A stretch of 42,544 nt of DNA from Candidatus Gottesmanbacteria bacterium RIFCSPHIGHO2_02_FULL_39_14. GTDB taxonomy: Bacteria; Patescibacteriota; Microgenomatia; 2-02-FULL-39-11. A program made the position numbers and the translations under genes. Numbering within the stretch: position 1 is the stretch's first letter; each line of letters begins with the position of its first letter. This document shows, in pieces, positions 25,918 to 42,544 of this stretch. The stretch spans positions 7,294 to 49,837 of the forward strand of contig MFJM01000012.1 in assembly GCA_001779205.1 (NCBI GenBank), read 5' to 3'. Under the pieces are notes generated by a model. That model saw nothing but the letters and a program-made list of their open reading frames with translations. It was not told where the DNA came from and did no database searches.

Positions 25918-25994
25918 GCCGCCATCGTCTAGTGGCTTAGGACGTCAGGTTCTCAACCTGAAAATCGCGGGTTCGATTCCCGCTGGCGGTACCA
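25918..25994 (+). tRNA. tRNA-Glu (anticodon CTC), CCA encoded
   Basis: Acceptor GCCGCCA pairs with TGGCGGT, discriminator A, encoded CCA. The D arm gtctagtggcttaggac is typical of tRNA-Glu. Anticodon stem TCAGG/CCTGA with loop TTCTCAA gives anticodon CTC at 25952-25954. T arm CGGGTTCGATTCCCG. All stems are complete. Its 3' end forms one end of the recombinase element, and the recombinase gene ends inside it on the other strand. Confidence 0.95.
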
Positions 25995-27495
25995 AGTTCC
26001 GACTTGTCGGGGCCGCCCGCAGGGCGGCCCATGGATTTAGCGCCGCGCCACGGACTTTTTTGTTGGAAAGGTAAAGGTTCGAACCGAAGATTTTTTTAAG
26101 TAATACCTTTTTCTTTGAGAGATCATTACCCCTTGCGATATTTGCAGCATCAGCTGCTTCTATAACCCATGTTCTCATGGGTCCGAGCCAAGCATTTTGC
26201 GTTTGTTCAAATGTATTAATTTTTTCTTCGAATGTCTTTTTTTGAGATAACAATTCAGCCTTCTTATTTAAGTAAGTATTGCGGTCAATAATCTGATCAA
26301 GATATGAATCTAAAAGGCGCTGGAGCTTTAGGTTTATAGCTTCAACCTCAATTTTTTTCATTTGAACAAACGCAGCACAGGATTGGGAAGAATCTTTTTC
26401 TTCTATTTTTAGATTATTTAAAATTTTATATTTCCAATCCTGTGGTAAAGAAACTTTTTGAATTAAATCTGATAATTGGCTGTTTAAGGCTTCTTCACGG
26501 ATATAACTTTGTCTGCAATCCTGAATCTGGGACTTTTTAGAACAACGGTAATAAATGTAGGTAGCGGAATGATTGGTTTCCTTATAAAACTTTGTCTTAA
26601 TTTCAGCTGTTATCATCATTCCGCATTCGCCACAGTGAAGAAGCCTGGTAAAAGCCTTTGGAATTCTGCCGTTTTCCTTGATATGAACAGGCTTACTTCT
26701 GTCTTTTAACACCATTTGCACCTTATCAAAAAGTTTCTTTGAAATGATTGGTTTGTGGATTCCCTCATGCAATTCACCACTGAATCTAAAAAGTCCCGTA
26801 TAGATCGGATCTGAAAGAATGTATTTAATTCTGTCCCTTTTAAGTTTTTTATTACCTCTTGAGAAAATACCATTTCGAGCCAAAAAGTTTGAAATATCTT
26901 CAAGTCTTGATTCATTTTGGGAATAAATACCAAAGGCAAGAGCTAAAATTGGACCTTTTTTCTTATCAATATCGATTTTCTTGGTTAATTTATTATTTAA
27001 ATAGCCAATTGGAGCAATTCCGGGGCGCTCACCCCTTCTAACTTTTTGGCGAAGTCCTCTTTTGGTATTTTCAGAGAGGGAATCCACATAATATTTGCTT
27101 TGCCCAAACGCCAAATTAAGAATAAACTTTCCCTGGGGTGTGGGCTCAAACCAGAATGTCGGGAATTTGAGAAATCTGATTTTACCTGTATCAATTAGAT
27201 ATATTATTCTTCCTCCATCAACACTATTGCGAGCAAGTCTGTCCGGATTCCAAGCTAAAATACCGGAAGCTTGACCTTTTTCAATTTTCTCAATCATTGA
27301 ATTGAAAATAGGTCTTCCAGGTATTTTGGCTGATTGTTTTTCAATAAATTCCTCTTGAATTGAAATACCTTCTTTAGTAGCAAATTCACGAATTTCAATA
27401 AGCTGATCTTCAATAGACCGCACTTGTTTATCTTCTACGTCTGTAGACTTGCGAGCATATAAAAAGAATTTTTGAGGGATACTAATAGTTTGCAT
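25945..27495 (-). CDS. large serine recombinase (resolvase/integrase)
   Basis: 516 residues. N-terminal catalytic domain FFLYARKSTDVEDKQVRSIE (nucleophile Ser17) with LAWNPDRLARNSVDGGRII, then a Recombinase domain (GIAPIGYLNNK ... RIKYILSDPIYTGLFRF), a zinc ribbon (LLHCGECGMMITAE ... YYRCSKKSQIQDCRQ) and a C-terminal coiled coil, the order found in large serine integrases. The last residues (PPAGIEPAIFRLRT) are just the antisense reading of tRNA-Glu, and the stop lies in the anticodon stem. The native end before integration is probably the one preserved at the inverted remnant (27698-27859). It would catalyse integration at the tRNA 3' end. Confidence 0.9.
   Translation of the reverse strand: MQTISIPQKFFLYARKSTDVEDKQVRSIEDQLIEIREFATKEGISIQEEFIEKQSAKIPGRPIFNSMIEKIEKGQASGILAWNPDRLARNSVDGGRIIYLIDTGKIRFLKFPTFWFEPTPQGKFILNLAFGQSKYYVDSLSENTKRGLRQKVRRGERPGIAPIGYLNNKLTKKIDIDKKKGPILALAFGIYSQNESRLEDISNFLARNGIFSRGNKKLKRDRIKYILSDPIYTGLFRFSGELHEGIHKPIISKKLFDKVQMVLKDRSKPVHIKENGRIPKAFTRLLHCGECGMMITAEIKTKFYKETNHSATYIYYRCSKKSQIQDCRQSYIREEALNSQLSDLIQKVSLPQDWKYKILNNLKIEEKDSSQSCAAFVQMKKIEVEAINLKLQRLLDSYLDQIIDRNTYLNKKAELLSQKKTFEEKINTFEQTQNAWLGPMRTWVIEAADAANIARGNDLSKKKVLLKKIFGSNLYLSNKKVRGAALNPWAALRAAPTSRNLVPPAGIEPAIFRLRT
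25989..26044. repeat. 56-bp inverted repeat, left arm at the tRNA-Glu 3' end
   Basis: Starts within the last bases of the tRNA (gtacca) and contains two palindromes, ccgac-ttg-tcgg-like and ggccgccc-gca-gggcggcc. It is a perfect reverse complement of 27759-27814; similarity then continues at a lower level to about 26143. Confidence 0.85.
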
Positions 27496-27516
27496 AATTT
27501 AAACGGCCGCTCCGGT

Positions 27517-27580
27517 GTACTCAAACCCTTGCGGATCTGTCCGAAACGGCCGTTAAAAAACCGCAAGATTGTTTGAGTAC
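27517..27580. repeat. 64-bp nested palindrome upstream of the recombinase gene
   Basis: GTACTCAAAC (27517-27526) and GTTTGAGTAC (27571-27580) are perfect inverted arms. Inside them CTTGCGG (27528-27534) pairs with CCGCAAG (27561-27567). AAACGGCCG occurs at 27501-27509 and again at 27544-27552. It lies directly before the recombinase start and could be its operator or a recombination site. Confidence 0.55.
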
Positions 27581-27668
27581 ATCCTTAATATATAGAGTAG
27601 GAAAATATTATCAAGATGATTGTCTAAAACAAACTGTGGCAAAAATTCTTTTTCGTTTGGGCAAAGTT

Positions 27669-27695
27669 CCCTCTGCGGCCGGAGAGGGATTTTTT
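27669..27695 (+). terminator. intrinsic terminator on the plus strand
   Basis: CCCTCT (27669-27674), loop gcggccgg, AGAGGG (27683-27688), then a six-T run from 27690. No intact plus-strand gene precedes it, so it may be a leftover of the rearranged element. Confidence 0.65.
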
Positions 27696-27697
27696 AT

Positions 27698-27859
27698 ATC
27701 GCAAGGGGTCACTTAAATCTTCGGCTCTTTTTTCTTCCCAACAAAAAAGTACGTGGTGAGGCGCTAAATCCATGGGCCGCCCTGCGGGCGGCCCCGACAA
27801 GTCGGAACTTGGTACAAGTCCAAAACACGGCTCGGAATCACTTCATCAATAATGCCTAA
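27698..27859 (+). pseudogene. remnant of a second serine-recombinase 3' end, inverted
   Basis: Reads IARGHLNLRLFFLPNKKVRG then EALNPWAALRAAPTSRNLV, against IARGNDLSKKK ... LYLSNKKVRGAALNPWAAL and RAAPTSRNLV in the intact recombinase. It then continues QVQNTARNHFINNA and stops at 27859. About 24 nt are missing relative to the intact gene. It contains the right inverted-repeat arm (27759-27814) and shows what follows the att-like point when no tRNA is attached. Confidence 0.6.
27759..27814. repeat. 56-bp inverted repeat, right arm
   Basis: Exact reverse complement of 25989-26044. Together the arms bound a segment of about 1.83 kb holding the recombinase gene. Inverted rather than direct orientation is unusual for integrase attachment sites. 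Confidence 0.85.
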
Positions 27860-28139
27860 TAAATAATGTAGCAAGAAAAAGAGGTATGAGGGGAAAATGA
27901 ATTGCTACATTACAACAAATGTTGCTCACCCCGCCTGACGGCGGGGTTTCCACCAGAGGAGGACAGGCGCATTGTATTAGCTCACCCGCTTCGCGGGTTC
28001 GCTTCTTCAATCTTCTTTTGAGAAATTTTCGCCGCTTTATTTACCAAAATCATATTATTGAACAAATAAATATATATTTCATTCAAACGAACAAACTAAT
28101 TGCTCAATAGATTTTATTTATTTGTTTATGATCAACTAT
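27815..28139. other. gene-free stretch with three hairpins
   Basis: TAATGTAGCAA (27864-27874) pairs with TTGCTACATTA (27902-27912). CCCCGCC-tgac-GGCGGGG (27929-27946) is followed by ttt, and CCCGC-ttc-GCGGG lies at 27985-27997. These lie past the 3' end of the protease gene (stop at 28140), so some may end the defence operon. Apart from the end of the recombinase remnant, no gene is visible here. Confidence 0.5.
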
Positions 28140-29426
28140 CTACTCAAAAAACCAGTCCCAAGTAGGGTTTTCTACCTCTAAAATTTTACTTTTGAACATT
28201 TTATAAACTCCATCTTCTTTGATAGTTTGCCAGATTCCTTCGTAAAAGTGCATTTCTGCTTCCCCGTCCACCCAGTTTTTAGTTGAGAATTTCACAAAGG
28301 CGGTATCGTTAGTATTTTCAAATTTCTCGGACTTGATAACGTCAACATCTAATATATCGGTAAATCGATTTGTCCATTCTTCGAAGTTGGTTTTTTTAAG
28401 GTACTCTTCACTTAACAAGTTAAAGCCGTCTTCCATTCTCCTGGCTTTGAGATACGTATAAAAAGCTTTGACTGCTTCTTCCGGCGAAACAGATGGGTCA
28501 ACTTCGATTTTTGTAATATTCTGGTCGGTAAAATCAGGTATTACCGTTTTTGCCCAGTCTGCATTGATAAATAGTGACAATCCGGCAAGACTAATGGTAT
28601 TAATTCCAACTACACTACCGCATTGATCTACTAGCGGGCCACCACTCATGCCTTTAACAAGGCTAATATCGGTTTGAATGTAGCCAATGGGCATTTGCTT
28701 GGACTTTCTAAAATCAATAAACCTTCCCTTAAGAGTTGTTGCCTTGCCGGTTAAATCCGTTCCCAAAGCATAGCCAGTGGCAACAAGTGGCTCATCTGCG
28801 CGAAATGCGATTCTATCCGGTAGCGGCAACACTAGATCGTGGTGTGGTTTTTCGGTAAACAGAATCGCCAAGTCAACCTCTTTATTTCCGAGAATTTTCA
28901 CTGGTGTTACAAAATTACCATCAGGAAAAATAATCTTCGGACTAGGCTCATCGGCGATAACATGGAAGTTGGTTATCACTTGGTCGGGAGCAACAAAAAA
29001 GCCTGTCCCCTCCGAATAACCGCCAACCACGCGAACGACTGAATTTATCATTTTATCCCGCACCCCAAATGAACAAAGGAACTTACCGATATAGCCATAT
29101 TGGTTGGTCAAATAATCAGCAATCACAAAAAGCGAAGCAACTAGATAAATGAAGATTCCGAGAATAAAAATTGACTTTAAAAAGTTTTTAAGACTTTTGA
29201 AGGGAAAAATAAATGTTTCAAAAATCAGGCCGATAAAGGCAAATATAAACTTGATTAAAAACTTAACCAGATAATAAGCGGTATAGGTAACAAGTTTTAT
29301 AGGAAAAAGATACAAGGGAAAAAGAAGGCGCTTGAAATAAGCGCCTAGCCCTTTAAGAAGTGTACTCGATCTCTCTTTAATCTTCTTCGCCAACCTATCA
29401 AATTGTCTTTCAAGTATATTTATCAT
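28140..29426 (-). CDS. membrane-anchored trypsin-like (HtrA-type) serine protease
   Basis: 428 residues. The first 110 or so hold two to three hydrophobic segments (residues about 35-58, 58-75 and 88-108). A trypsin-fold domain follows with the triad His (TNFHVIA, about 152), Asp (VDLAILF, about 185) and Ser (VKGMSGGPLVD, about 260). The last 110 residues (SPEEAVKAFYTYLKARRMED ... WDWFFE) resemble an NTF2-like fold, not a PDZ domain. It starts 2 nt after the nuclease gene and ends the defence operon. It may cut a cellular or phage protein once the system senses infection; that is inference. Confidence 0.8.
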   Translation of the reverse strand: MINILERQFDRLAKKIKERSSTLLKGLGAYFKRLLFPLYLFPIKLVTYTAYYLVKFLIKFIFAFIGLIFETFIFPFKSLKNFLKSIFILGIFIYLVASLFVIADYLTNQYGYIGKFLCSFGVRDKMINSVVRVVGGYSEGTGFFVAPDQVITNFHVIADEPSPKIIFPDGNFVTPVKILGNKEVDLAILFTEKPHHDLVLPLPDRIAFRADEPLVATGYALGTDLTGKATTLKGRFIDFRKSKQMPIGYIQTDISLVKGMSGGPLVDQCGSVVGINTISLAGLSLFINADWAKTVIPDFTDQNITKIEVDPSVSPEEAVKAFYTYLKARRMEDGFNLLSEEYLKKTNFEEWTNRFTDILDVDVIKSEKFENTNDTAFVKFSTKNWVDGEAEMHFYEGIWQTIKEDGVYKMFKSKILEVENPTWDWFFE

Positions 29427-29428
29427 GC

Positions 29429-30307
29429 TTAGTCTCTAGATGGCAGCATAATTTGCAAATCTTTATGTATACTGGCTGATAAATTTTGATCAAAATTATA
29501 AATATTTCCAACAATAAAAGTTGTATGTGTCATTGGAATATCAGTCTTAAACCCAGTAAGGCAAGACAAACAATAAAGTATTAAACAGGGTTCGTCGTTA
29601 CATATTTTTCTAATCATAGCTAAGTTATTTTGATAAAATTGGCTAAGCAAAGCATTCAGAAAAGCTAGAGCTGATTGTTCATCTTTACTGTCAAGGATCA
29701 AATCGTCTCCTAATATGATTTGTTCAAGTGATAAAGCCATGGTTGGAATACCAACAGAATTTTGCGTTTTTCTCAGTTGTTTTAAGGCTTTTCTAATATT
29801 CTTTTCTAGAGACTTCATCGAATATGGTCTTTTACACTCGATGTTATAAGTAAAGTTAGTTGTTGAAAGCTGTAAATCCGGATTGGATCTTCCAAGCTTA
29901 ACTCGTAGATTCCTAGCATAGAAAAAAGAAAATAAACTAAGTTCAAAAGTTGTATCCCTAGCTTGCGTGTTATTGATATCTTCCTCTGAAAGTAGGTAGG
30001 TTCCCTTAGCCAAATGTGTTAGTTTCACTTTTAGGATGTTATTATCTATTTTGGTATTTTGAAGAGCGTCGATTATCTTGCATATCTCAAGTACATAGAA
30101 CTGGCTATAGTAATACTTCGCTTTATTTTTCTGGATTAACACATGAAACTTGTCTTTATCCAGATTTCTCGATTTTTCGATTTCTCCTAAATATTTAAAA
30201 TATTTACTTATCCTATTAGAATCATCGAAATTTAGCCCAAGATTGCTATACAAATCCTTGATTTTCTTCTTATAAAGTAATAAGTCTGAATACTTATATT
30301 TATTCAT
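29429..30307 (-). CDS. PD-(D/E)XK nuclease-like protein in the defence operon
   Basis: 292 residues from the ATG at 30307, which is preceded by aaggtgcgaaaa (AAGGTG as RBS); an in-frame GTG at 30316 is less likely. The first 120 residues are helical. Then FELSLFSFFYARNLRVKLG, SNPDLQLSTTNFTYNIECKR and PYSMKSLEKNIRKAL give the Glu, Pro-Asp, and Glu-Cys-Lys pattern of a restriction-type PD-(D/E)XK site. The gene lies between the HEPN gene and the protease, both a few nt away. I do not recognise a named family; a nuclease role is a reasonable but unproved reading. Confidence 0.55.
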   Translation of the reverse strand: MNKYKYSDLLLYKKKIKDLYSNLGLNFDDSNRISKYFKYLGEIEKSRNLDKDKFHVLIQKNKAKYYYSQFYVLEICKIIDALQNTKIDNNILKVKLTHLAKGTYLLSEEDINNTQARDTTFELSLFSFFYARNLRVKLGRSNPDLQLSTTNFTYNIECKRPYSMKSLEKNIRKALKQLRKTQNSVGIPTMALSLEQIILGDDLILDSKDEQSALAFLNALLSQFYQNNLAMIRKICNDEPCLILYCLSCLTGFKTDIPMTHTTFIVGNIYNFDQNLSASIHKDLQIMLPSRD

Positions 30308-30322
30308 TTTTCGCACCTTAAG

Positions 30323-30955
30323 CTACTTTTCGTTGTTAATCCATCCCTTTGTAAAAGCTACCTGCCAATCATCAGGCACGGGAGTTAATGATTCGTAGCC
30401 TGATTGAGTTAAAAGCAATTGATACTTTATTACTAGCTTCTCTATTTGACCAATCGCTTCTTTTATTTTCGTGTAGCTGATGTTAGAGGTAAACTTACCG
30501 CTATTGTCTTTGTGCCCAACTTGTTTATGGCGAAATTCTTTAATTTCCTTTGTGGAATCCTTTAAGCTTTGTATATCTTCACATACAAGATTGAGGTCAA
30601 GATTATCTCCCTTTCCGAATTCTTCTTCAAAAGTTGAAGACGACAACGCATTGGAGCCTTGTGAAACCCACCAGCTTTTAGTAATAACTCTATGATTAGT
30701 CAATAAATCCTTAAGTAAGTTTATTAGACTAAGTGATCGTGTATCCTCATCTATCTGATGCCAAATTTTTGAAACAATAAAGTAAGTATAGTTCAGTTTA
30801 TAATGCTCCCAAAAAGAACTAATATTTTGTTGCACAAATGGGTTTGCTCTAATTATTTTTTCTAATTCCTCGGCCTGGTACTTGCTATAAAGTAAATCTT
30901 CAACATCGCCAGTAATTACTTCAATTTCTTTTTGCCACTTTTTTACTTTGTCCAT
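30323..30955 (-). CDS. HEPN protein, AbiU2-like
   Basis: 210 residues, mostly helical. ISSFWEHYKLNYTYFIVSKI, then WHQIDEDTRSLSLINLLKDL and IKEFRHKQVGHKD match the AbiU2-type HEPN layout, with RHKQVGH fitting the R-X4-6-H RNase motif. HEPN proteins of this type are RNases used as toxins in abortive infection. It starts 2 nt after the interrupted gene before it and ends 15 nt ahead of the nuclease start, so it belongs to the same operon. Confidence 0.7.
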   Translation of the reverse strand: MDKVKKWQKEIEVITGDVEDLLYSKYQAEELEKIIRANPFVQQNISSFWEHYKLNYTYFIVSKIWHQIDEDTRSLSLINLLKDLLTNHRVITKSWWVSQGSNALSSSTFEEEFGKGDNLDLNLVCEDIQSLKDSTKEIKEFRHKQVGHKDNSGKFTSNISYTKIKEAIGQIEKLVIKYQLLLTQSGYESLTPVPDDWQVAFTKGWINNEK

Positions 30956-30957
30956 AG

Positions 30958-31524
30958 CTAGAATTTGCTTCTTAAAACCCGCATTTGTCCATAATCCAAG
31001 CTAACAATTTGATCGTATCTCTTTTTAAATATTTCCCTTAAGCTTTCGTTTCTGTCTAATTCTTCTTCGTAATCTTTGAGTGCACTTTTTGTATATTCAT
31101 AAAAATCTGGAATGTTTAAGAAAAGAATTTCTTCATTTTCAGTTTTAACCTTTTTTAGGAAGTAACTATCTTGAAAATTCATATCAATGGCCAATGCTTT
31201 GGGAGACCATTGATGAGATAAACCATGCCTAAAAACGGTATAAAATAGTTTAGAGAAGTTTCAATCCTTGAAACTATCAAAATATTTAGAAAAATACTCG
31301 GTTAAAAAGTCAGCCACAGTATCGCTATTTGTATCTTTTCCTTTGTAATAACCTGAGCACATCTCAATAACAGACAATATCGTCAGACAGGCAGTAAAGT
31401 TTAGACCGCCCTTAAAACGAGTGTCACCGGCTTGTTTAAGTTTTGATACTGACAAACAACTCTCTAAGTCGTCGCAGAAAAATTCCCATATGTGTTGTTT
31501 GAAAACATCCTTGTGTAATGTCAT
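30958..31524 (-). pseudogene. RX4H-containing protein interrupted by one in-frame UGA
   Basis: From the ATG at 31524 the frame runs 87 residues (ending KYFDSFKD) to a TGA at 31261-31263. It then continues in the same frame without another stop for 100 codons: NFSKLFYTVFRHGLSHQWSP, then KALAIDMNFQDSYFLKKV and on to 30958. The sequence after the stop is clearly protein-like and has no start codon of its own nearby except a TTG at 31194. RHGLSH fits a HEPN R-X4-H motif. TGA is a normal stop elsewhere in this window, so this is a nonsense mutation, a sequencing error, or read-through. Confidence 0.65.
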
Positions 31525-31530
31525 AAGACT

Positions 31531-32136
31531 TTATTTTGTTGGAACTTTTAGGGCTGTTATTTTAATCGTTATCTCTTGGGTCGTACTTATTTTTAGGCTA
31601 TCATCTAACACCGTTTGCTCCGGATTATCGTTTAGATTATCAAGGTTGCCTCCAATTCGCTCTAAAATTCTTTTCAATAAAAAATACTCCTCTGTCGGTA
31701 AACCATAAACATTATTAAAAATACAATGCGAAAGCCTTTCCACTAACCTATAATTACTAAAATGAACTTTATTTTCAAACCTTTGTATTGTGAATTCGGA
31801 TAACTCAGACATTACATTAGCAAATGTCTCTACTATAGCCAGACTCGCAAACATATCAGTGCTCTCGGTATACGGTTCAAAGGGTTTTTCAGGTACACCA
31901 ACCAGTCCGAATTGTTGTGCAAGCTCGGAAATAACTGCATCCAAATCTGAGGGTTTTGTTGAATTAAATCTAATACGAATATTTGTATTTTCGAATAGAT
32001 AGAACCATTTATTGATAAGCGTTTGCCTTTTCAAAGCATAAATAAGTTTTGCAATTTTTTGCAATGTCATTTTAGCGCTTCCCTCTATTTTAAAATCTAT
32101 TTGATACCAATTATTGAGTTTATTTAAAGTTGCCAT
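31531..32136 (-). CDS. lantibiotic-dehydratase C-terminal-like protein
   Basis: 201 residues. The start NNWYQIDFKIEGSAKMTLQK, then LIYALKRQTLINKWFYLFEN and TNIRIRFNSTKPSDLDAVIS looks like the stand-alone thiopeptide/lantibiotic dehydratase C-terminal fold, in which a W/F-Y-x-R and an R-x-R-F strand bind a leader peptide or tRNA-activated substrate. No dehydratase N-terminal part or precursor peptide is near. The middle part (TESTDMFASLAIVETFANVM) is helical. In this operon it may serve as a sensor or as a modification enzyme; that is guesswork. Family call is tentative. Confidence 0.4.
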   Translation of the reverse strand: MATLNKLNNWYQIDFKIEGSAKMTLQKIAKLIYALKRQTLINKWFYLFENTNIRIRFNSTKPSDLDAVISELAQQFGLVGVPEKPFEPYTESTDMFASLAIVETFANVMSELSEFTIQRFENKVHFSNYRLVERLSHCIFNNVYGLPTEEYFLLKRILERIGGNLDNLNDNPEQTVLDDSLKISTTQEITIKITALKVPTK

Positions 32137-32143
32137 ATTATCT

Positions 32144-35100
32144 TCAGTTTCGTTTTCCCTCTACAATATTAATTTCCTCCGGTGTTAGGCCGTAGAGTTT
32201 ATAAACCAACTGATCTATTTGTTGTTCATAGTCTTTAACTTTTGCCTGTTTCTCTGAACTGGCGAGATAATCACTTGTGTTTGTATTAGTAAGAATCTTG
32301 TCAACTATTTCGATAAATGGTTTCTGATTAAGAATAGAGGTTGTTTTGATCGGAATTTCAGATAATGGTTTTGCATAAAGTTCAAGACTATCACCTTTTC
32401 TTTTTCCACGATAATATAACCAACAGTAATATAATTTTGAATTTAAGAGTGCTAAGACATATTTTAAAGATATATCATTAAACTTTTTAGTTATAAAATA
32501 TACGTCCTTACTAGCAAAATATTCATCTTTACTATAAGCAAAAACATTAATAATAGATCTTTGGGGACAAATTATTTTTTCCGAAACGAAAATTTGTTTA
32601 TTTTTGGCTACAAAAACAACCCACCACTTACCTAGCTTTAATGCAGCCTGAATTTCACCTCTATCTGACGCTCTATTATTTATTAATGTATTATATTTCT
32701 TCAAATGCTGAAAGATATTTGGATACTCTTTAATGTTAAGATCTCTTGTTGCATATATTAAGAACTTATCTGTTTCTTTCGGAATGTAATATTGTTTTAT
32801 GTCTGAATTTTTAAACCACGGTTTAATAATTTGATTTTCTTTATTATTAAGCCCAATTTTACTTAACTCATCTTTATTCAATATATATACGCCGTTATTT
32901 AAATGGTTTTTCCCAATCAAACTTTTTTCAATATGTTTATTTGTAACTTTATCTATACCTGTTTGAATACCAGAATCAATATTACAAATATTACCTAATA
33001 GCCAGTTATTTATTTTTAATTTCTCAAATATCTTGTTCATATAATTATCATCTTTTCCAGCGCCTTCTAATCTTATATAACATTCATCGCCATCATAAAT
33101 ATCACTTTGCTTAACTTTATAATAATTTGTATTTGATGCTTTAGAAGTTAAAATTTGTTGTAATAAATCATGCGTAGCTAATCCTTTTTGTTGGGTCACA
33201 CAGGTATATACTGAAGTATAATCAGCAATTTTTTTAGTAAAAATAATTATCATATTATGTTGGCCCATTGCTGATTCAAATATTTTTAATTCATTAAAAT
33301 TGATCATTTTATTTAATATACTTCTTGTTTTTAAATCTCTCCTAAGTTTATCTGCATTTGTTGCAGTTATGAAATAGTTTGTAGTGATAAAAGAACTAAC
33401 TCCATTCTCATTTAATAAATCAAGTGCTAAATGAATAAAAAAATAATACATATCCATTCTTTTTTGGTAATATTTTTTATATGTTGACTTTTTAATTTCT
33501 TGAAATAACTCTTTTTTACGTTTTTCTCCAACATATGGTGGATTAGCAATAATGATATTAAATCCATCTTTTATTCCAAACATCCATTCCGGATCAAACC
33601 ATTCTGCTGATTTATGTGAGAAGGGTTCCCAGCTAGAAAGTTTATGAGTAAGTTCAGCTTTAAATAAACTCATGTACCCATGTTCTGAAACCAAGTCAAA
33701 AATTAATTGTTTTTGAGTTTCTATAAATTCCGATTTAAGTTGTTCACGCTCTATTCCAGATGCTGTGAAATATTGTTCACGAATAGCTTTCAATTCTTCA
33801 ATTTTTTCTCTATCATCGAACATTTCCGTTTGTTTTGGTTTATCCGAAGAATTATTTAGTTGAGGTAATCCAATTAAACTATTTGCAGTTACGAATTTAA
33901 AATCTAGATTCGGTAAAGGTTCGATTCCTCTATTATCAGATGAATCATCTACTTTTTGATCAACAACAAGAGTTAAGAAACATCTTAATCTTGAGATTTC
34001 TGTAGCGATTGGCTGGATATCTATACCGTAAATATTTTCTCTTATAATTCCCAATTTTCTTATATAATCAAAATTTTGATTTTCAAATTCGCGTTGTATT
34101 ATTCTTCTAATTTCAGGAGAAGTTTTTAATTGTTGTTTTTTAAACCACAATTTTCCATCCGGATCTATTTGTTGTAATATAAAAACGATCTTTTGAAGAG
34201 CACCTATTGGAAAAGCTCCTGAACCACAAGCAGGATCAAGCAATTTGAGACTCTCAAGAGAGTTTATAATTTGCTCTTTTTCTTCTAAGGAATAGGTGAA
34301 ATTTGAATCATCTACTAAATCATAAGTTATCATTGCCTTTAGTTTATTTTCTTTAACTTTAGTTTGTTGTTTTAAATACAAAAGAATACTTTCATCCACC
34401 ATATAATCTACGATCACACGAGGTGTATAATAGCTTCCGGTGCTCTTCCGAGCTGACTCGCCAGTTTCTGGGTTAATTTCAGCAAGTAAATTTTCAAAAA
34501 TTCTCCCTAACATCTCCGGATCAATGGAAAGCTCTTCATCATAGCTTGTGTTTTCATCAATAGTGAAATTGTATGTTTCAAGAATTTTAAAAAAGTCCTT
34601 AAACCAATTATCAGGAATTACTAGAGTATTGCGATATTGTGATTGATAATCTCCATTATTGCGTTTGTAGAAGTCATCATTTTGTGGATAAAATAAACCA
34701 CCATTAAGATACGGTACAGAAGAAAATGAGTTTTTGGAAAAATCATCAATTCGGGATTTAACCGGTTTATTTAGAACTTCAAAAAAGATCGGTTCCAGAA
34801 TCGTATGATAAAAATTTTCATTACTCTTAACTGCTTCTAAAGATAACAATTCTTTAGGTATTAAAGATAGTCCGACTTGGCTTTTTTTCTCTCGCAAAAA
34901 CCAACAGAATAATATTCTTCCGATAAGTCGGACAGCAAATTCTAAACACGCTTGTGACTTATCAATTATAGAAGGTAATTTTAATAATGATTTAAAATCA
35001 GTTTTCTTTTTCCCGATATTGATTGTTCCTCCAACTAACTTTATAAATAATAGTGAAATTTCTTTATAAAATTCTTTATTGACTACTTCGATTGAAAATC

Positions 35101-35572
35101 TCTTTTTGAGATCATTAAAATCCATTATTTTATCTTTACTTATGAGAAATTTGGTTGGGGTATTTACTTTTGCGTCTGGACCTAGGAAGAAAGAGAATCT
35201 TCTTGGATTAGAAAATTCTTTTTCAATTTTTGTTCCTGATTCCCATTTTGATCCAAATGTAATTAACGAAAAGCGGTAATTTAATGATTTTTTATTTTTA
35301 AAGATTATAAGAGCTCTATGCACTCCATAATCTTTAATCAATGCGAATGATTCTTTTGATAAAGTTACTCTTGGATCATGTTCATTTTCATGTTCCAACT
35401 CATAGAGGTTTAAATCTAATGCCTCGCTTTTCCCAATTTTTGTGATCTTTCTAATAAGTGAGTAAGTTCTATTTGGGATAATTTCTTCAGTTTTAATTAC
35501 TGTATCGGGGATGAACCATTTTAAGAAAGTTTCAAAATCAATTCGATCATATGGTTTCTTAAAATCAATCAT
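32144..35572 (-). CDS. Eco57I-like N6-adenine DNA methyltransferase (type IIG-like)
   Basis: 1142 residues. The N-terminal 200 contain the region RFSLITFGSKWESGTKIEKE ... RRFSFFLG seen in Eco57I-type proteins. Motif I is LLDPACGSGAFPIGAL (about residue 447) and motif IV IIANPPYVGE (about 675), typical of adenine methylation. The C-terminal third (GNICNIDSGIQTGIDKVTNK ... PWFKNSDIKQYYIPKETDKF) is a TaqI-like target recognition domain. The start overlaps the helicase stop by 4 nt (ATGA). It would mark self DNA while the helicase and nucleases act on unmarked DNA; this reading is inference. Confidence 0.85.
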   Translation of the reverse strand: MIDFKKPYDRIDFETFLKWFIPDTVIKTEEIIPNRTYSLIRKITKIGKSEALDLNLYELEHENEHDPRVTLSKESFALIKDYGVHRALIIFKNKKSLNYRFSLITFGSKWESGTKIEKEFSNPRRFSFFLGPDAKVNTPTKFLISKDKIMDFNDLKKRFSIEVVNKEFYKEISLLFIKLVGGTINIGKKKTDFKSLLKLPSIIDKSQACLEFAVRLIGRILFCWFLREKKSQVGLSLIPKELLSLEAVKSNENFYHTILEPIFFEVLNKPVKSRIDDFSKNSFSSVPYLNGGLFYPQNDDFYKRNNGDYQSQYRNTLVIPDNWFKDFFKILETYNFTIDENTSYDEELSIDPEMLGRIFENLLAEINPETGESARKSTGSYYTPRVIVDYMVDESILLYLKQQTKVKENKLKAMITYDLVDDSNFTYSLEEKEQIINSLESLKLLDPACGSGAFPIGALQKIVFILQQIDPDGKLWFKKQQLKTSPEIRRIIQREFENQNFDYIRKLGIIRENIYGIDIQPIATEISRLRCFLTLVVDQKVDDSSDNRGIEPLPNLDFKFVTANSLIGLPQLNNSSDKPKQTEMFDDREKIEELKAIREQYFTASGIEREQLKSEFIETQKQLIFDLVSEHGYMSLFKAELTHKLSSWEPFSHKSAEWFDPEWMFGIKDGFNIIIANPPYVGEKRKKELFQEIKKSTYKKYYQKRMDMYYFFIHLALDLLNENGVSSFITTNYFITATNADKLRRDLKTRSILNKMINFNELKIFESAMGQHNMIIIFTKKIADYTSVYTCVTQQKGLATHDLLQQILTSKASNTNYYKVKQSDIYDGDECYIRLEGAGKDDNYMNKIFEKLKINNWLLGNICNIDSGIQTGIDKVTNKHIEKSLIGKNHLNNGVYILNKDELSKIGLNNKENQIIKPWFKNSDIKQYYIPKETDKFLIYATRDLNIKEYPNIFQHLKKYNTLINNRASDRGEIQAALKLGKWWVVFVAKNKQIFVSEKIICPQRSIINVFAYSKDEYFASKDVYFITKKFNDISLKYVLALLNSKLYYCWLYYRGKRKGDSLELYAKPLSEIPIKTTSILNQKPFIEIVDKILTNTNTSDYLASSEKQAKVKDYEQQIDQLVYKLYGLTPEEINIVEGKRN

Positions 35573-38500
35573 AGCTCCTCAGCTAGAATCAGTGATTCTT
35601 CACCTTCTTCTATTGAATCAGCTTCCTGAATAATTTTTTGAAGGTAATCGTGTGGTACTTCGTTGATTAAAGCCTTAACCTCTTCATATAAGTTTTCTTT
35701 TCTTATAGCTCTAATAGTTTTTGCAAATTTCGCTGGTAAGTCTCCTAATTCATTTAAAACATATTCAAGATCTTCAAAATAATCTTTATGATCAGGTACG
35801 AGTTCTTTTAGTAAATGCACTTTCTCTATTGCTTCTATCAATCCTCTATCTTTAGGAATCTCTGATTTTCTAATAAACAAGTTATTTTTCGTATATTCAT
35901 ATATGCTAAAAAATGTGTCCGATATCTTTTGGGGAATTTCACTACTATCCGATTCAAAAAGTCTTAGTGCTTCAGCTGCTGTAATTGCGAGCGTTTCTTT
36001 ATCTGATATTCCAAGTTTGAAAGCATAGTCCATTCCTTTCTTTCCAAAAACCAACACACCTCGTTCTATAAATGATTTCAGTCTTTTTATTTTTGTTCTC
36101 ATTGGAATTTTATGCGCTTCTTTTAGTTCGGGGGAATCCTTTAGTGAAAGTATTAAATTTTTATATTTTGTATCCCAGGACATATCCTCTGTTCTATTCA
36201 TTTCATCATTAAATTTCTCATCATATGATTTCACTAGTTCATCAACAGAAAGATATTTAGTGTCATCTCCAAGAAGAGCTTTTATTATGTCTATTTTTAG
36301 AGTTGAGATACGGCGAATTCCAGTTTCTTCCTCGCCAGTAGGTGAAGGGAAGAAATTATATATATGCAGTTCATCATAAACCTTTTTATTTACACGATTT
36401 ATTCTTCCTACTCTTTGAATGACTCTTGTCGGATTATAGGGGATATCATAGTTGAAGATAATTCCAGCATTGTGAAGATTATACCCTTCAGAAATAGCAT
36501 CCGTAGCTATAAGAATGTCGAAGTTATTTTTCTGATTAATGTATCCTGCATCAAAATTTTCTCTAATGATATTTCTATTTTCTACAGTTGAATCTTCTGA
36601 TGAATATTTAAATATTCTAAAATAATCTTTAATTAGACTATATAGATAATTTACTGTATCTGAATATATACTAAATATTACTAATTTCCTTTTGGGATTT
36701 TCATTCAGATTGTTAGTAATTAATTCTTTTATTTTTGCAACCTTCGGATCTGTAGACGGATCAAAGTTTTTCCACATTGATTGAATCTGAATCAATATAT
36801 TCATATCGGAGTAAAGGTCATTAACATAATTAGGTTCAAGATCTGCTGTATTTACCAATTCAAATCCTTTTTCCCCTAAATCACCGTAAATCTCGCTTAT
36901 TTTTTGCCAAATTTCATCACCGTCTTCGTCAGGAAAATCGTCGATGTCAGGTAGGTCGCCCTTTTTATAAATCGGTACAAATCCTCGCTTATACCACTCT
37001 TCAATTCTTTTGTGCGACAAGATCATTTTATCTAAAGTCTTTCTGAAAGCCTCAATAGAACTTTCAAATCTGTGGACAAGAAGCCTTTTCATAAACTGAG
37101 CTAAAAACTTTTGAGAGTTTTTAATAAGTCTTGAATCTATATTTAATCTTTTAGCTACTTCTTCTAACTTTTTGTCGTCTTTGATATATCCAACAACGTT
37201 ATACCTTGCTCCTTTAAATCCATATTCTTTCTCACCTGGTACTATAAACTGAAGAGTTTTTACATATAAATCATTTAATTTACCAAAGTCATACTCAATA
37301 TGTTTTGGAGGTTTAACTACTGGAAATTCTATTCCCTGAAGTTTTAGATCATCGTTATACACTTTTATATTTTGCAGGTCTAATCTTGAACGCCTAATTA
37401 GTAACGGACTAATAAGATCTCTAATTTGAGCTGCTAATGTATTTATTTCATTTTTTATTTCTTGGCCGTCTTCGTCTACTTTTTTCAGTTTTTTAATACG
37501 ATTGTAATGTTTTACTAATTCCTTAAATCTCAAACTGAGATTGTCTATAGTTTGAATGGTAGATTTTGCCGGAATCTGAAATAGTTTTACTAAAGCAAAA
37601 ATATCTTTAGGATTATTATTAAAAGGAGTCGCAGTAAGAAGTATTACTTTATTACCTTTACATAACCTATGTAGATTGGCATAAATTGATTTTTCTTCAT
37701 TTCTAAACTTGTGAGCTTCATCAACAATAATAAGTCGTGGATGTCCGTCGTTGTTTTCATTAATTGCGTTAAGTACAGATCCAGACCCATAAACTTTTGC
37801 ATCAAACCTAAATTCAAACCTATAATCTTCCCATTGTTGTTTCAAATGAGGAGGAGTAATGATTATAGTTTGTAGATCTAGATTTTTTGCTATGCAAGAG
37901 GCGACTATACTTTTACCCAATCCTACTACATCGGCAACTATTGCCCCGCCATGTTTATTAATTATATTCAAAGCCTGGCGAATTGCATCAACCTGATAAC
38001 GTAAGTTTATCTTGTCTTTAGTAATTTTAGCCGGGGTAATAATATCTTTGTCCTCAATCAACGAAAAATATTCGTCTAATACTCTCAAATAAATATGATA
38101 TGGTTTAGGAAGCTGATTAACCCAGACTTTATTTAAAACTTCCTTTTCAAAAATTGGTAAGTTTTCCTTATCGACTAAAGGAATAGATGTTTCCCATAGT
38201 TCAAAAAACTTACTCTTATATAAATTGTAATAATCATTTTCTTTAAATATTTCATTATCTTCATTTTGACCTCTTAGACCTGATAAAGTAAGATTACTAG
38301 AACCTTTAATAACTGAACCTAAATATATTCCATTTTGATTATTATTAGCAGAATTTTCAAATACATAAACTTTGGAATGATCAGGATCAACAGTTTTCCT
38401 GATTTCTAGAGATCCATCAAGAATTTTTTGTTTAAATACTTGGTATGCTTCGACCGTTTCCTTATTGTCAACTTCATTTACATCGTTGAAAACTTTGACT

Positions 38501-38766
38501 AAAGACTCATAATACTCTTTTCGTACTATACTTTTCGGTTTATGATTAAGATTATTGTAAGAAAGTTCGTTAATTATCCCGCCTAAACCTCTCTGAATAT
38601 CTTTGCCCACAAGTATCTTTAGGTTCTTATTTTTGAGATTCTTATAAATCTCTTTATAACCTGAGAAGAAAAAGTAGCCTGTTCTGAAAAATAAATTATC
38701 GGCAAATGGAATAATGTTATTGATTACATCGGCCATTTTAATTGTTTTGTTATCGATTATTTGCAT
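35569..38766 (-). CDS. SNF2-type helicase with N-terminal PLD-like domain
   Basis: 1065 residues. Residues about 1-190 form a phospholipase D-like domain with one HxK half-site (DPDHSKVYVFEN) and GSSNLTLSGLRGQNEDNEIF. The SNF2/HepA motor follows: Walker A VADVVGLGKSIVA (about 283), IIVDEAHKFRN, LLTATPFNN, and the second lobe LIATDAISEGYNLHNAGIIF and RVIQRVGRINRVN. The last 230 residues are helical. It heads the operon. A -10-like TAAAAT lies 6 nt before the ATG, so the mRNA may be leaderless. The domain order recalls DISARM-like and other helicase-methyltransferase defence modules, but I cannot name this one. Confidence 0.85.
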   Translation of the reverse strand: MQIIDNKTIKMADVINNIIPFADNLFFRTGYFFFSGYKEIYKNLKNKNLKILVGKDIQRGLGGIINELSYNNLNHKPKSIVRKEYYESLVKVFNDVNEVDNKETVEAYQVFKQKILDGSLEIRKTVDPDHSKVYVFENSANNNQNGIYLGSVIKGSSNLTLSGLRGQNEDNEIFKENDYYNLYKSKFFELWETSIPLVDKENLPIFEKEVLNKVWVNQLPKPYHIYLRVLDEYFSLIEDKDIITPAKITKDKINLRYQVDAIRQALNIINKHGGAIVADVVGLGKSIVASCIAKNLDLQTIIITPPHLKQQWEDYRFEFRFDAKVYGSGSVLNAINENNDGHPRLIIVDEAHKFRNEEKSIYANLHRLCKGNKVILLTATPFNNNPKDIFALVKLFQIPAKSTIQTIDNLSLRFKELVKHYNRIKKLKKVDEDGQEIKNEINTLAAQIRDLISPLLIRRSRLDLQNIKVYNDDLKLQGIEFPVVKPPKHIEYDFGKLNDLYVKTLQFIVPGEKEYGFKGARYNVVGYIKDDKKLEEVAKRLNIDSRLIKNSQKFLAQFMKRLLVHRFESSIEAFRKTLDKMILSHKRIEEWYKRGFVPIYKKGDLPDIDDFPDEDGDEIWQKISEIYGDLGEKGFELVNTADLEPNYVNDLYSDMNILIQIQSMWKNFDPSTDPKVAKIKELITNNLNENPKRKLVIFSIYSDTVNYLYSLIKDYFRIFKYSSEDSTVENRNIIRENFDAGYINQKNNFDILIATDAISEGYNLHNAGIIFNYDIPYNPTRVIQRVGRINRVNKKVYDELHIYNFFPSPTGEEETGIRRISTLKIDIIKALLGDDTKYLSVDELVKSYDEKFNDEMNRTEDMSWDTKYKNLILSLKDSPELKEAHKIPMRTKIKRLKSFIERGVLVFGKKGMDYAFKLGISDKETLAITAAEALRLFESDSSEIPQKISDTFFSIYEYTKNNLFIRKSEIPKDRGLIEAIEKVHLLKELVPDHKDYFEDLEYVLNELGDLPAKFAKTIRAIRKENLYEEVKALINEVPHDYLQKIIQEADSIEEGEESLILAEEL

Positions 38767-38854
38767 AAGCTGATTTTATCACTTTAGATTGGTATAAACG
38801 AGGATAAGCTAAAAGACGACAAGTCGGAAAACAATCTTTGAAAATTAAGTGAGA

Positions 38855-39127
38855 TTACTTAATCCACTTCGCAAAACTTAATTTATACATAGACTCAAGA
38901 AAATCTGACCCTGCGTACCCTGCGAGAAAAGCCAATTTCCAACTTGTTTCGACAAGGATTCCGGAAATCATACCTAAAACTGCTGCGGTAAATACAGTAA
39001 CCCAGAAATAGAATGGTTTGTATTCCCATTTCTTTTGTTGAAATGACTGTGATTTAACAAGACCAACTAAAGCTCTTAGTAACCCACCTGCCATTCCGGA
39101 TAATAAAAAGATTGTCCACTCGGGCAT
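38855..39127 (-). CDS. small membrane protein, two to three helices
   Basis: 90 residues. Hydrophobic segments at about 4-22, 40-60 and 66-78. The charged loop KSQSFQQKKWEYKPFY lies between the first two, and the end FLAGYAGSDFLESMYKLSFA is semi-polar. Clear RBS (ttggaggtgaactt). No family recognised; the size and layout are holin-like, but nothing phage-like is near. It stands apart from the helicase gene by 88 nt. Confidence 0.55.
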   Translation of the reverse strand: MPEWTIFLLSGMAGGLLRALVGLVKSQSFQQKKWEYKPFYFWVTVFTAAVLGMISGILVETSWKLAFLAGYAGSDFLESMYKLSFAKWIK

Positions 39128-39142
39128 AAGTTCACCTCCAAA

Positions 39143-39562
39143 CTATTTAAAGGCGATAAATAATCCAATAATGACAATAATAAGGCCAATAAAGAATTTA
39201 AAAGTAAGAGTTTCGCCAAGTAAAAAATAACCAGCTATTCCTCCAAAAAGTGGAATGAGTGCCCAAAACATATTAATCTGCCAAATTGGTAAATATGTAA
39301 AAGATTTAACTAATAAATAGTAACCGACTGCATTGGTAATTCCCGCTAAAATTAATAAATATAAATTTTGTTTGTGACTTAAAATATCTTGAAAAGATTT
39401 GGAGAATATAAAAAAAGGCAATATTACTAACCAGAGAACTGCTACTTGAATAATTATTGTTGCAAAAGGATTAAATCCTGCTTTTTTAAGAATGGGATTT
39501 CCAACAGCATATGCAAGCATTGAAATTGTCATTAAAATTATTCCAATTACTGTTTTATCCAT
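39143..39562 (-). CDS. half-size EamA/DMT family transporter
   Basis: 139 residues with about five membrane helices and a single EamA unit (MDKTVIGIILMTISMLAYAV ... FLLGETLTFKFFIGLIIVII). Half-size members work as dimers, unlike the two-repeat protein encoded just upstream. It has a typical conserved glycine/proline-rich end (GETLT motif). Substrate unknown; drug or metabolite export is usual in the family. Confidence 0.8.
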   Translation of the reverse strand: MDKTVIGIILMTISMLAYAVGNPILKKAGFNPFATIIIQVAVLWLVILPFFIFSKSFQDILSHKQNLYLLILAGITNAVGYYLLVKSFTYLPIWQINMFWALIPLFGGIAGYFLLGETLTFKFFIGLIIVIIGLFIAFK

Positions 39563-39583
39563 AAAATTAGTTTCTTTTAATAT

Positions 39584-40480
39584 CTATTGTTTTCTTCTTT
39601 TAATGAATTCATAAGTAGTTGACAGGAAAACACCCAAAAATACAAGACTACCACCAAATACAAATCCGTGAGTTAAAGCTCCGCTTAATAACAATATTTC
39701 TAATATAGCTGTAAAAATTGGCTGCAAATAGGAAATAATGCTTGTAGTTAATGCACTAAGTTTACTAAGTGCATACTGATATAGATAAAAATTAATTAAG
39801 GTTCCAAAAATTCCGATGAATAGGACTGCATATAAATTAGTTGAGGTGAGAATGACTGGTTCTTTCAAAATTAAATTTCCATATATTAAAATCGGAATTG
39901 AGAAAATAGCCGAAACAATTATTGAAATACCTGTCGTATCAAATGCAGTAAAAATTTTTAGAAGTCTCTTAGTCCATAAAAGATAAGCTGTTGAACATAT
40001 AACAGCAACAAATATAACAACATTCCCGATAAATCCCCCGCTTAGAGTTGACTCTTTTTCAATTCTGGAAAGATTTATAATAATTAAAATACCAATTAAG
40101 CCTAATATTACCCCTAGTAATCTGCCGAATTTATATTTTTCAGTCTTGAAATAAACTCCATATAAAATTATTAATATAGGAGCAAGTGAATATAACAAAT
40201 GACTGGCTGAAGCACTTGTATATTTAATGCCGAATGAAAATAAGGACATATTCAACATAAAGAGAATTGAGACTTTTAAAAGTTCAGGAAAATGGGTATG
40301 CGTCCAAATTCTTTTTTTTATAAAAAATGGGAATATTATAATTGCCGGAATAATTAATCTTAAAAAAAGTAAAGTAAAGGGATTTATTTCATTTACTATT
40401 GAACGATTGAATATTACGGAAAACGACCAAAAAACAGTAGCGATGAGTAAAGCCAGAATGGCATTTAATTTTTCATTCAT
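39584..40480 (-). CDS. EamA/DMT family transporter, two-repeat form
   Basis: 298 residues with ten predicted helices in two EamA repeats (WSFSVIFNRSIVNEINPFTL in the first, ISYLQPIFTAILEILLL in the second) and a basic C-terminal tail (KRRKQ). I use the ATG at 40480; a TTG six nt upstream is also in frame. It is paired with the half-size gene 21 nt downstream. Likely exports a small metabolite through the inner membrane. Confidence 0.85.
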   Translation of the reverse strand: MNEKLNAILALLIATVFWSFSVIFNRSIVNEINPFTLLFLRLIIPAIIIFPFFIKKRIWTHTHFPELLKVSILFMLNMSLFSFGIKYTSASASHLLYSLAPILIILYGVYFKTEKYKFGRLLGVILGLIGILIIINLSRIEKESTLSGGFIGNVVIFVAVICSTAYLLWTKRLLKIFTAFDTTGISIIVSAIFSIPILIYGNLILKEPVILTSTNLYAVLFIGIFGTLINFYLYQYALSKLSALTTSIISYLQPIFTAILEILLLSGALTHGFVFGGSLVFLGVFLSTTYEFIKRRKQ

Positions 40481-40537
40481 TATCAAAAAATAGAGATGAA
40501 TTTTTCCGGTATTTTTAAGTGATTAATTAGGTTTCAT

Positions 40538-41092
40538 TTAATCATCATCTTCCAATAAGTTTATTTTATTTCTCTTTGCCTGGTTTTGAGCGCTTAATAG
40601 TTCCTGCTGGTAAATAAAGGGTTTTCTTTTTTCGTAGATTGTTACTTTTGCAAGTCCTCTTTTAACTAATTCTATAGCTAGATTTTTATCATTAATAATC
40701 ACATAAGCCAGTATTCTTCCGAATCTGTCTGATTTATAAGAGTCGTATTCAAGATTTACTTTCCTACCTTCAATAAGATTTTTAGTATATTCAGTTGCCT
40801 GTTCTTCATACTTTTCATTGTTATTTGGAGCATTTACTCCGACAAGTCGGACTATTTGGCTATTATTTAATTCAATTGTATCTCCGTCAATTACTCTTTT
40901 AACTTTGGCTTCTTTGGGAAATTCTAAAACTTGGTTATTTACTATTACTGGCTCATTTTCGATAGTATCTTTAATTTGTTTTTCATATTTAGTACCAACA
41001 AGAAAAGACGACAAAGAAAGTAAAACAGCAAGAGGAACTAAAACATATTTGTTTTTGGATGATTTTTGATTTGTTTGATTTTTCTTTTTCAT
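40538..41092 (-). CDS. membrane-anchored thermonuclease (SNase family)
   Basis: 184 residues. A basic N-terminus and one hydrophobic helix (about residues 16-32, LVPLAVLLSLSSFLVG) anchor it, with the nuclease outside. The SNase core has KVKRVIDGDTIEL, IVRLVGVNAP, a following acidic EEQATEYTK and SDRFGRILAYV, which provide the Asp, Arg, Glu and Arg of the active site. It would cut DNA or RNA in a Ca-dependent way, perhaps for uptake of nucleotides, which such reduced cells need. It overlaps the preceding gene by 4 nt (ATGA). Confidence 0.88.
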   Translation of the reverse strand: MKKKNQTNQKSSKNKYVLVPLAVLLSLSSFLVGTKYEKQIKDTIENEPVIVNNQVLEFPKEAKVKRVIDGDTIELNNSQIVRLVGVNAPNNNEKYEEQATEYTKNLIEGRKVNLEYDSYKSDRFGRILAYVIINDKNLAIELVKRGLAKVTIYEKRKPFIYQQELLSAQNQAKRNKINLLEDDD

Positions 41093-42366
41093 AATAGACT
41101 GTATTTAGTATATTTGCTTTTGCCTTCTTTTTTAAGTCTTCCGTTATTAACAAGCTGTGAAAGATAAGTTGTTGCTGTACTTTGGGAAACATGGAGTAAA
41201 TCTCGAATATCAAGATTATTAAATTTAGAATTATTTGAAGCAAACGATAAAATTTTATCAAGAGAAGCAGCTACTCTTTCAGCTTTTACTCTATTTGCAA
41301 GATTTCTTCTGTCTGTCTGTTCTCTTAATAACCTGTCTTGAATTTGTTTATCTACTTCTTCCTGATTAACAACCGGAACTTCTTTAACTACTTCCTTTAT
41401 TACTTCAACTGGCTTTTCAACTATTTTCTCAATGACCTTTTCTATAACTTGAGGTGGAGGGGGAGTTGGATTAGTTTGATTACTAGAATCTGTTTGCTGT
41501 TGAACTTGCGGTGGTGGATTAGGTTGTTGAGGTGCTAGTTGTGTTTGTTGGACAGTTTCTTGAGGATTATCTTTGATTTCAAAAAGATCTTCAGGAATAT
41601 TTGCTCTATCGTCATGAGTTTCTTTAATCAGATCACCAAAAGAAAAAGGCTTAACTGATTCAGAAGTTTGAGGCTGGATTTCAGGCTTATTCTCTTGATG
41701 AAGCAGCTCTCCAAATGATTTTTGATTATTTTCTGATAATTTTTCATCGGCCAATGGTGCTTCTTTTGGACTTTCCAGAGGCTCCGGTTTGATTTCGGCC
41801 GATGAAGTTGAGTTTTGTTCAGTATTAATATTAGAAGCATTGTCTGATGAACTGGATTGCACTTGGGAAGCTTGATTATCTGGTGGCTTGATATCTGCAT
41901 CATCCTTCGATAAAACTTCCTCCTTCACTAAAGTTTCGGCGGATAAATCGACAATCGGATCAATTTTTTCAGGAACTGTTTCAACTGGTTTTTCTTCGGC
42001 CACGACGATATTTTCTGTTTGAGCTGATGCTGTAGCTTCGCCTTGATTATCGGCCAATTCCGGAATTTCCTGCTTTTGTATTTCAGTTGAATTTGATTCT
42101 TCTAAAACTTCTTTTTTAGTTTCATTAGCCAATTTGGGAGAATCTGGCCGTTGCTCTTCTGAAGTTTGAGATTGATCTAAACTGGCTGATTCCGTTGATT
42201 CTTTTTCATCGGCCAAAATGGGCGGTTCTGGCCGATGGGCACTTGATGACGCTTCGGATTGATCGGATAAATCTGGAGTTGGAACTTGAACTGGTGGAGT
42301 TAAGGTTGATGAATCAACCGGAGGAATAGTCTGATCGGTCACTGGCTGGGACTGGTTATCGGCCAT
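41089..42366 (-). CDS. long disordered protein with C-terminal winged helix
   Basis: 425 residues from the ATG at 42366; a TTG at 42405 would extend it by 13. Residues 1 to about 260 are Ser/Glu/Gln/Pro-rich and unstructured, with repeated L-A-D-E/N units (PILADEKES, PELADNQGE, APLADEKLS). A proline tract (TPPPPQ) and a charged helix (VIEKVIEKIVEKPVEVIKEV) follow. The last 75 residues form a winged helix (LDIRDLLHVSQSTATTYLSQ, LVNNGRLKKEGKSKYTKYSL). It may be a DNA-binding regulator with a long tether. It is co-translated with the thermonuclease. Confidence 0.65.
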   Translation of the reverse strand: MADNQSQPVTDQTIPPVDSSTLTPPVQVPTPDLSDQSEASSSAHRPEPPILADEKESTESASLDQSQTSEEQRPDSPKLANETKKEVLEESNSTEIQKQEIPELADNQGEATASAQTENIVVAEEKPVETVPEKIDPIVDLSAETLVKEEVLSKDDADIKPPDNQASQVQSSSSDNASNINTEQNSTSSAEIKPEPLESPKEAPLADEKLSENNQKSFGELLHQENKPEIQPQTSESVKPFSFGDLIKETHDDRANIPEDLFEIKDNPQETVQQTQLAPQQPNPPPQVQQQTDSSNQTNPTPPPPQVIEKVIEKIVEKPVEVIKEVVKEVPVVNQEEVDKQIQDRLLREQTDRRNLANRVKAERVAASLDKILSFASNNSKFNNLDIRDLLHVSQSTATTYLSQLVNNGRLKKEGKSKYTKYSLL

Positions 42367-42438: not shown

Positions 42439-42544
42439 GGCTTCCGCTATCCCTCGCCCCCTCTGGATATAACCTCCCTAAAAGGAGAGCCGCCGACAAA
42501 GAAACTATTAAACCTAAATAGCAGATTGAAGAGGCGGCTCGACT

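Follow-up and report, generated by a model that had tools for sequence, protein, structure and literature searches.

We find that the large serine recombinase (LSR) gene that abuts a tRNA-Glu gene in Candidatus Gottesmanbacteria bacterium RIFCSPHIGHO2_02_FULL_39_14 shares its arrangement with more than a hundred relatives, nearly all of them patescibacterial. On balance, we read the locus as an integrated mobile element of a patescibacterial family of LSRs that insert at tRNA 3' ends, in which integration would remove the recombinase's own C-terminal tail and a spare, inverted attP would allow the gene to be restored. The window, by which we mean the whole 42,544-nucleotide stretch of DNA that was analysed, holds the target tRNA, the recombinase, the spare site and part of the cargo (Table 1). 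Because its right edge is the contig end, the cargo must be at least 14.6 kb long.

Recombinase and repeat arms at tRNA-Glu

The recombinase encoded in the window matches PF00239 (Resolvase), PF07508 (Recombinase) and PF13408 (Zn_ribbon_recom), all above cut-off, and the N-terminal catalytic serine motif Y6 R8 K9 S10 is invariant in 32 aligned relatives, the window protein among them. By its domains and its motif, the protein is a large serine recombinase (serine integrase). Its open reading frame (25945-27495, minus strand) is intact, and the final codons lie antisense to tRNA-Glu. A first, sequence-only reading of this DNA had proposed a serine recombinase integrated at tRNA-Glu, and this is borne out by the LSR 3' end that runs antisense into tRNA-Glu(CTC).

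Table 1. Features of the integrated element in the window and of its far end on contig C55 of the same genome (G000)
Feature	Position	Strand	Remarks
tRNA-Glu(CTC), target	25918..25994	+	ARAGORN; acceptor pairing, arm boundary, T-loop GAAC motif
attB half (T-arm and acceptor 3' side of tRNA-Glu(CTC))	within 25918..25994	+	
CCA of tRNA-Glu	25992-25994		on the element side of the junction
Large serine recombinase (LSR), 516 aa, integrated form	25945..27495	-	ORF and domain matches
Arm B' (recombinase 3' end)	25989..26093	+	attP half joined to the tRNA = attL
Core GTAC at attL	25989..25992	+	sequence; further GTAC copies at 27812-27815 (spare site) and G000:C55:80-83 (far end)
Arm B (spare, inverted duplicate of the coding 3' end of the recombinase)	27715..27815	+	
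A' half of the spare attP	27812..27894	+	inverted partner A = G000:C55:1-83
Spare coding sequence, native C-terminal tail (QVQNTARNHFINNA-stop)	27816..27859	+	continues the reading frame of the recombinase end of arm B
Cargo	27895..42544	.	reaches the window end = contig end

The two arms are exact reverse complements over 56 bp (25989-26044 and 27759-27814), just as the earlier reading had stated. The similarity extends further, since the ungapped inverted repeat 25989-26075 / 27729-27815 is 93% identical, the gapped similarity reaches 26093 and 27715 at 88.6% identity, and an additional exact inverted block of 14 nt is present at 26128-26141 / 27696-27709. When we searched the region 25.4-28.6 kb for separated exact inverted repeats, the longest was the one of 56 bp, while 30 Markov-1 shuffles gave 10-14. 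The window arms are hence real and far beyond chance. The left arm, which had been described as starting in the last bases of the tRNA, does so precisely at acceptor nt 71.

Translation of the right arm gives the recombinase 3' end in the opposite orientation. The sequence-only reading had called this arm a remnant; the orientation was correctly recognized, but the arm is not simply decayed. It forms one half of a second, inverted attachment site, which runs on rightwards from the arm into 27816-27894 at least. The description of the end repeats as inverted and not direct needs a similar correction: inverted they are, but a direct core repeat, GTAC, additionally marks the tRNA junction and the far end of the element, which lies on another contig.

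Element layout and tRNA targets in the family

Relatives were collected from a scan of genome contigs (80) and from the family genomes (28 more), and of 380 patescibacterial genomes surveyed across the phylum, 249 had LSR matches at E <= 0.001, counting every LSR subtype. After removal of near-duplicates, 188 distinct recombinases were examined, nearly all of them patescibacterial. Inverted repeats flank the gene in 134 of these, with a median length of 117 bp and a median identity of 99%; the copies are 100% identical in 63 of the 134 and at least 97% identical in 104. A tRNA or tmRNA gene lies at the 3' side of the recombinase gene in 117 of the 134 and at the 5' side in a single one (L064), and 16 loci were not callable. 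The recombinase consequently points toward the tRNA in 117 of 118 callable cases, and the targets at the 3' side comprise 20 tRNA types plus tmRNA. In most of the approximately 50 loci that we measured, representing many isotypes, the arm reaches 1-2 nt into the acceptor stem (nt 71-72), which would place the crossover near nt 71-73 and leave the discriminator and the CCA on the element side. Across the assemblies surveyed, inverted repeats are a fixed feature of widespread small integrating elements in these ultrasmall bacteria (Patescibacteria).

Several observations accompany this survey. Some of the loci that lack a plain tRNA call reach the contig end, and L044, L069 and L096 run into interrupted tRNA-like sequence resembling intron-containing genes; at these three loci and at L064, the target tRNA genes are apparently interrupted by an intron near the anticodon, with insertion at their 3' ends as usual. 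Contigs frequently begin or end within the repeats (L015, L064, L082, L147, L168, L174 and G000:C55). Given these breaks inside the repeats, the elements disrupt short-read assembly, and their number is probably underestimated. Recombinase relatives also occur in MAGs labelled Opitutaceae, Sulfuricaulis, Bdellovibrio, Marinimicrobia and Omnitrophota (L059, L063, L079, L083 and L088), which points to either wrong binning of patescibacterial contigs or transfer out of the phylum. L048 contains two inverted recombinase genes, about 72% alike, within 5 kb; each has its own repeat pair, and several tRNA genes adjoin. Viral contigs scanned for circular or free copies yielded five loci only and no circle, and the recombinases in plasmid records were all distant, at <60% identity.

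About 18 relatives whose flanks are long enough, among them the one in complete genome CP055308.1 (L110), have a further inverted pair, A'/A, which lies directly against arm B (overlap 0-10 bp) and encloses the cargo. The element order shown by these loci, as they are assembled, is tRNA / B'-rec-B·A'-cargo-A / flank. Since integration split an attP of the composition A·B', the junction B·A' is an intact inverted copy of attP. For the window element, the 83-bp partner A was sought within the window and not found there; A' instead matches, in inverted orientation and with 100% identity over 83 bp, the very start of contig C55 from its own genome (C55:1-83). On C55, A is followed by a YdcF-like gene, and in G003, a genome of the same genus, GreA, tRNA-Glu and a YdcF-like gene are contiguous. 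By gene order, this arrangement in G003 is the empty site. Insertion at a tRNA 3' end, a GTAC core at each end and the empty site in G003 together characterize a tRNA-targeted integrative element, the far end of which is on a separate contig. We infer the link between the window contig (C12) and C55, and likewise the full element length. The same genome contains another A-type half at G000:C38:2492-2612 (L117, L123; 82% identical over 121 bp) on a 6.2-kb contig without a recombinase, which is probably the far end of another element. Comparison by eye of the similarity of B/B' and A/A' after integration gave a higher value for B in 10 cases, for A in 4 and equal values in 5, which is not significant.

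Complete elements carry 1-5 kb of varied cargo, including DNA methylases, an OLD-like ATPase, a response regulator and a Ham1-family protein. An XRE-type regulator often adjoins A', and the cargo ORF lists, from which ten proteins were searched against Pfam, show no evident replication gene. The window element is larger than its complete relatives. It encodes, at 28140-38766 on the minus strand, a trypsin-like protease, a HEPN/AbiU2-like protein, an Eco57I-type methylase (1142 aa) and a SNF2 helicase with a PLD-like domain (1065 aa). This is a probable defence operon; single genes match PADLOC models (IIG enzymes, DrmD, HKD+Snf2), and no complete named defence system was identified in this segment with these models. 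Elsewhere in the window (19151-21968), and unrelated to the element, two convergent ORFs of similar size and partly similar sequence overlap at their 3' ends.

The C-terminal tail and the attachment half-sites

The 14 C-terminal residues of the window recombinase in its integrated form, PPAGIEPAIFRLRT, come from the antisense strand of the tRNA gene. If the recombinase frame is instead followed through the spare copy, as it would be on the circle, it gives the native tail QVQNTARNHFINNA. Throughout the family, this frame continues across the spare copy for 12-19 further codons with the pattern (L/I/V)(Y/L)xx(A/V/I)RT(H/Y/F)Fxx(N) and then reaches a stop. Among 58 tails, the R is present in 57, the T in 55 and the F in 54; the stop follows 7-14 codons past the motif in 54. 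Variation in these tails is lowest at second codon positions, third positions are variable, and the other two frames contain no comparable pattern. After deduplication, the motif was detected in the recombinase frame of 81 out of 100 spare copies. The corresponding numbers were 3 and 2 for the two other frames and 2 for the integrated tails. The 19 copies without a clear tail are explained in part by truncated or decayed arms. The conserved tails show that attP is situated within the coding 3' end of the recombinase gene, and that in the integrated form a tRNA-antisense peptide stands in place of a conserved tail of 12-19 aa. The catalytic, DNA-binding and zinc-ribbon domains are untouched by integration, all annotated domains being contained in one ORF. 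A structure prediction of L075 with its native tail gave a low-confidence helix for the tail (pLDDT ~46-53), which is uninformative on its role. We found no prior report of an inverted spare attP or of a conserved tail in the literature covered, which was partial and excluded most subscription papers, and we regard the novelty of both as provisional.

The half-sites carry a recognizable motif. In the tRNA, the T-loop GAAC motif is positioned 16 nt from nt72 on the antisense strand, and the same motif is found in the A half of nearly all elements at 20-21 nt from the nt72 position. The A' half in the window has such a P-type motif at 21 nt from this position, and the B half has no clear symmetric GAAC-type motif. 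In known serine integrases, the distance of the zinc-domain motif from the centre is 5 bp shorter in attB than it is in attP (PMC3783163). The corresponding placement of the attP motif, about 5 bp farther from the crossover, is seen here on the A side only. Because the motif lies 4-5 bp farther out in the A half than in the tRNA, the data fit an attB that is the tRNA and an attP that is A·B'. This suggests that the T-loop may be the feature read by the recombinase, which would explain the wide range of tRNA targets.

Mechanism, alternative readings and known systems

We propose that a circle with two inverted attPs would integrate by means of the full-length recombinase. If the attP at the 3' end of the gene is used, the tail would be removed and the insertion stabilised. 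Integration via the other attP would leave the gene whole, in a state that may be unstable or short-lived, and this would explain the orientation bias; indeed, the near absence of the gene-whole orientation (1/118) suggests a state that is unstable or not formed. Once in the chromosome, a B x B' inversion would make the gene whole from the spare copy. We infer from the sequences a self-truncating integrase, whose tail would be lost upon integration and could be restored by inversion through the arms. More tentatively, the arms may provide a switch, in which the exchange of the tail for tRNA sequence would shut down excision and arm inversion would reunite the gene with its spare tail and thereby re-arm the element; we consider this possible, but would not count on it. 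The recombinase gene is joined to its native tail in L072 and L075, and the tRNA is on the 5' side in L064, and all three look like restored or flipped states. Each of these contigs breaks inside or just beyond a repeat arm, so that all three can be explained by misassembly across the repeat. The A118 integrase and CcrA/B are known to recombine attP x attP within one molecule (PMC3783163), and recombinase-driven inversion on the circle would therefore also be possible. The cargo orientation is likewise fixed in elements with an XRE-type gene, which means that repeated cycles of flipping and reintegration must be rare.

The spare attP could alternatively be chiefly an operator, at which bound recombinase controls divergent recombinase and cargo promoters, so that the spare tail code would be a by-product of the likeness of the copies. 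An attP is a strong LSR binding site, and in many elements the recombinase and the first cargo gene (often of the XRE-type HTH class) do diverge from the spare-attP region. The identity, however, spans 29-185 bp for B and up to 354 bp for A, beyond the need of a binding site of ~50 bp, and we think an operator unlikely to be the main role. It is improbable that the inverted copies pair on single-stranded DNA into a double-stranded attP, as in CTX phage integration, with strand polarity setting the orientation. Complete inverted attP copies of near-perfect identity and the strict 117 to 1 orientation would agree with such folding, but serine recombinases cleave both DNA strands, so that hairpin-capped breaks would arise on a folded one, and the cargo ORF lists (ten proteins family-searched) contain no apparent replication or ssDNA-packaging gene.

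A transposon-like unit with terminal inverted repeats, in which B'-rec-B is mobile alone and the A'-A cargo is a separate element, has very little probability in our view. Each module does possess its own inverted repeat, but the core at the far end and the A half both agree with the spare site, the G003 empty site shows that the whole A-to-B' segment was inserted between tRNA-Glu and the YdcF-like gene, and the tail coding is in frame across the B/A border. Moreover, a single inverted duplication of attP accounts for both pairs. We rejected terminal inverted repeats of a transposon, as the second repeat pair bounds the recombinase unit and the far junction comes after A in loci with both pairs. 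Finally, the sequence-only reading had envisaged a local accident, namely an inversion or two elements meeting head to head at tRNA-Glu with later decay, and although arms that are just 88.6% alike overall and a right arm without a gene body would fit, this has next to no likelihood and is rejected on the family-wide pattern, with the same layout in 117 of the 134 distinct repeat-flanked relatives and repeats that end at the same tRNA nucleotides, while its presence in the complete genome L110 speaks against an assembly artefact. Only the later decay holds in part, the window arms being less alike than the family median of 99%. The layout common to the relatives and the fixed repeat ends in the tRNA lead us therefore to a built-in design.

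Known systems offer partial parallels to the integrating element with a spare inverted attP. DsiB from the ssrA islands of Dehalococcoides, a CcrB-family serine recombinase whose 3' end overlaps attP/attL antisense to ssrA, and which its authors suggest may be fully functional only on the circle (PMC3146451), is a partial precedent: here too, an LSR 3' end overlaps an att site antisense to an RNA gene. Unlike for the window family, the sections of that report considered here mention no inverted attP copy and report no conserved native tail; according to them, ssrA is the sole target and a second small recombinase, DsiA, is present (PMC3146451). The archaeal suicidal (SSV-type) integrases have attP inside the gene, which is interrupted by tRNA integration, and how these elements escape is an open question; self-disrupting recombinases are described as exclusively archaeal (PMC8371274). 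With its conserved tail encoded across attP, the window family similarly has the attachment site within the integrase coding sequence. The SSV-type enzyme is a tyrosine recombinase that is split into two fragments, whereas the serine recombinase of the window family would lose a short tail only and, in contrast, carries a spare inverted copy.

Among the Ccr recombinases of SCC, which are likewise compact cassettes with variable cargo, CcrB is the best NCBIfam similarity of the window protein, with all scores below the respective cut-offs (CcrB 97.6/900, CcrC 70.2/900 and CcrA 54.5/700 bits). The SCC target is rlmH instead of a tRNA, and no second recombinase adjoins the window gene. The solved LSRs A118/LI integrase and SPbeta YokA are sequence homologues, for which the zinc-domain motif is shifted by 5 bp between attP and attB; they have a single attP, compared to the spare inverted attP here, and we know of no tRNA-derived tail in either. 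The circular yeast 2-micron plasmid has two inverted Flp FRT sites, each embedded in an inverted repeat of greater length, and thus resembles the window family in its paired inverted sites. Flp is a tyrosine recombinase that inverts freely, whereas the orientation in the window family is fixed; with 117 to 1 for a single orientation in the assemblies, free inversion of the 2-micron kind is unsupported.

In summary, what had appeared as an odd local repeat is part of a widespread and testable design. It suggests a way in which a single recombinase family can reach nearly every tRNA, and a reason for the odd tRNA-antisense tails of recombinases in patescibacterial genomes and for the assembly breaks at these sites. 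The design further provides a bacterial case for the puzzle of the archaeal suicidal integrases, which is how an integrase that damages its own gene persists. Should arm inversion indeed unlock the element, bacteria would have, in a serine recombinase, an answer to the question of how a self-truncating integrase escapes. If the tail controls the direction of the reaction, it may represent a built-in directionality control for serine integrases, enzymes that are used in genome engineering.
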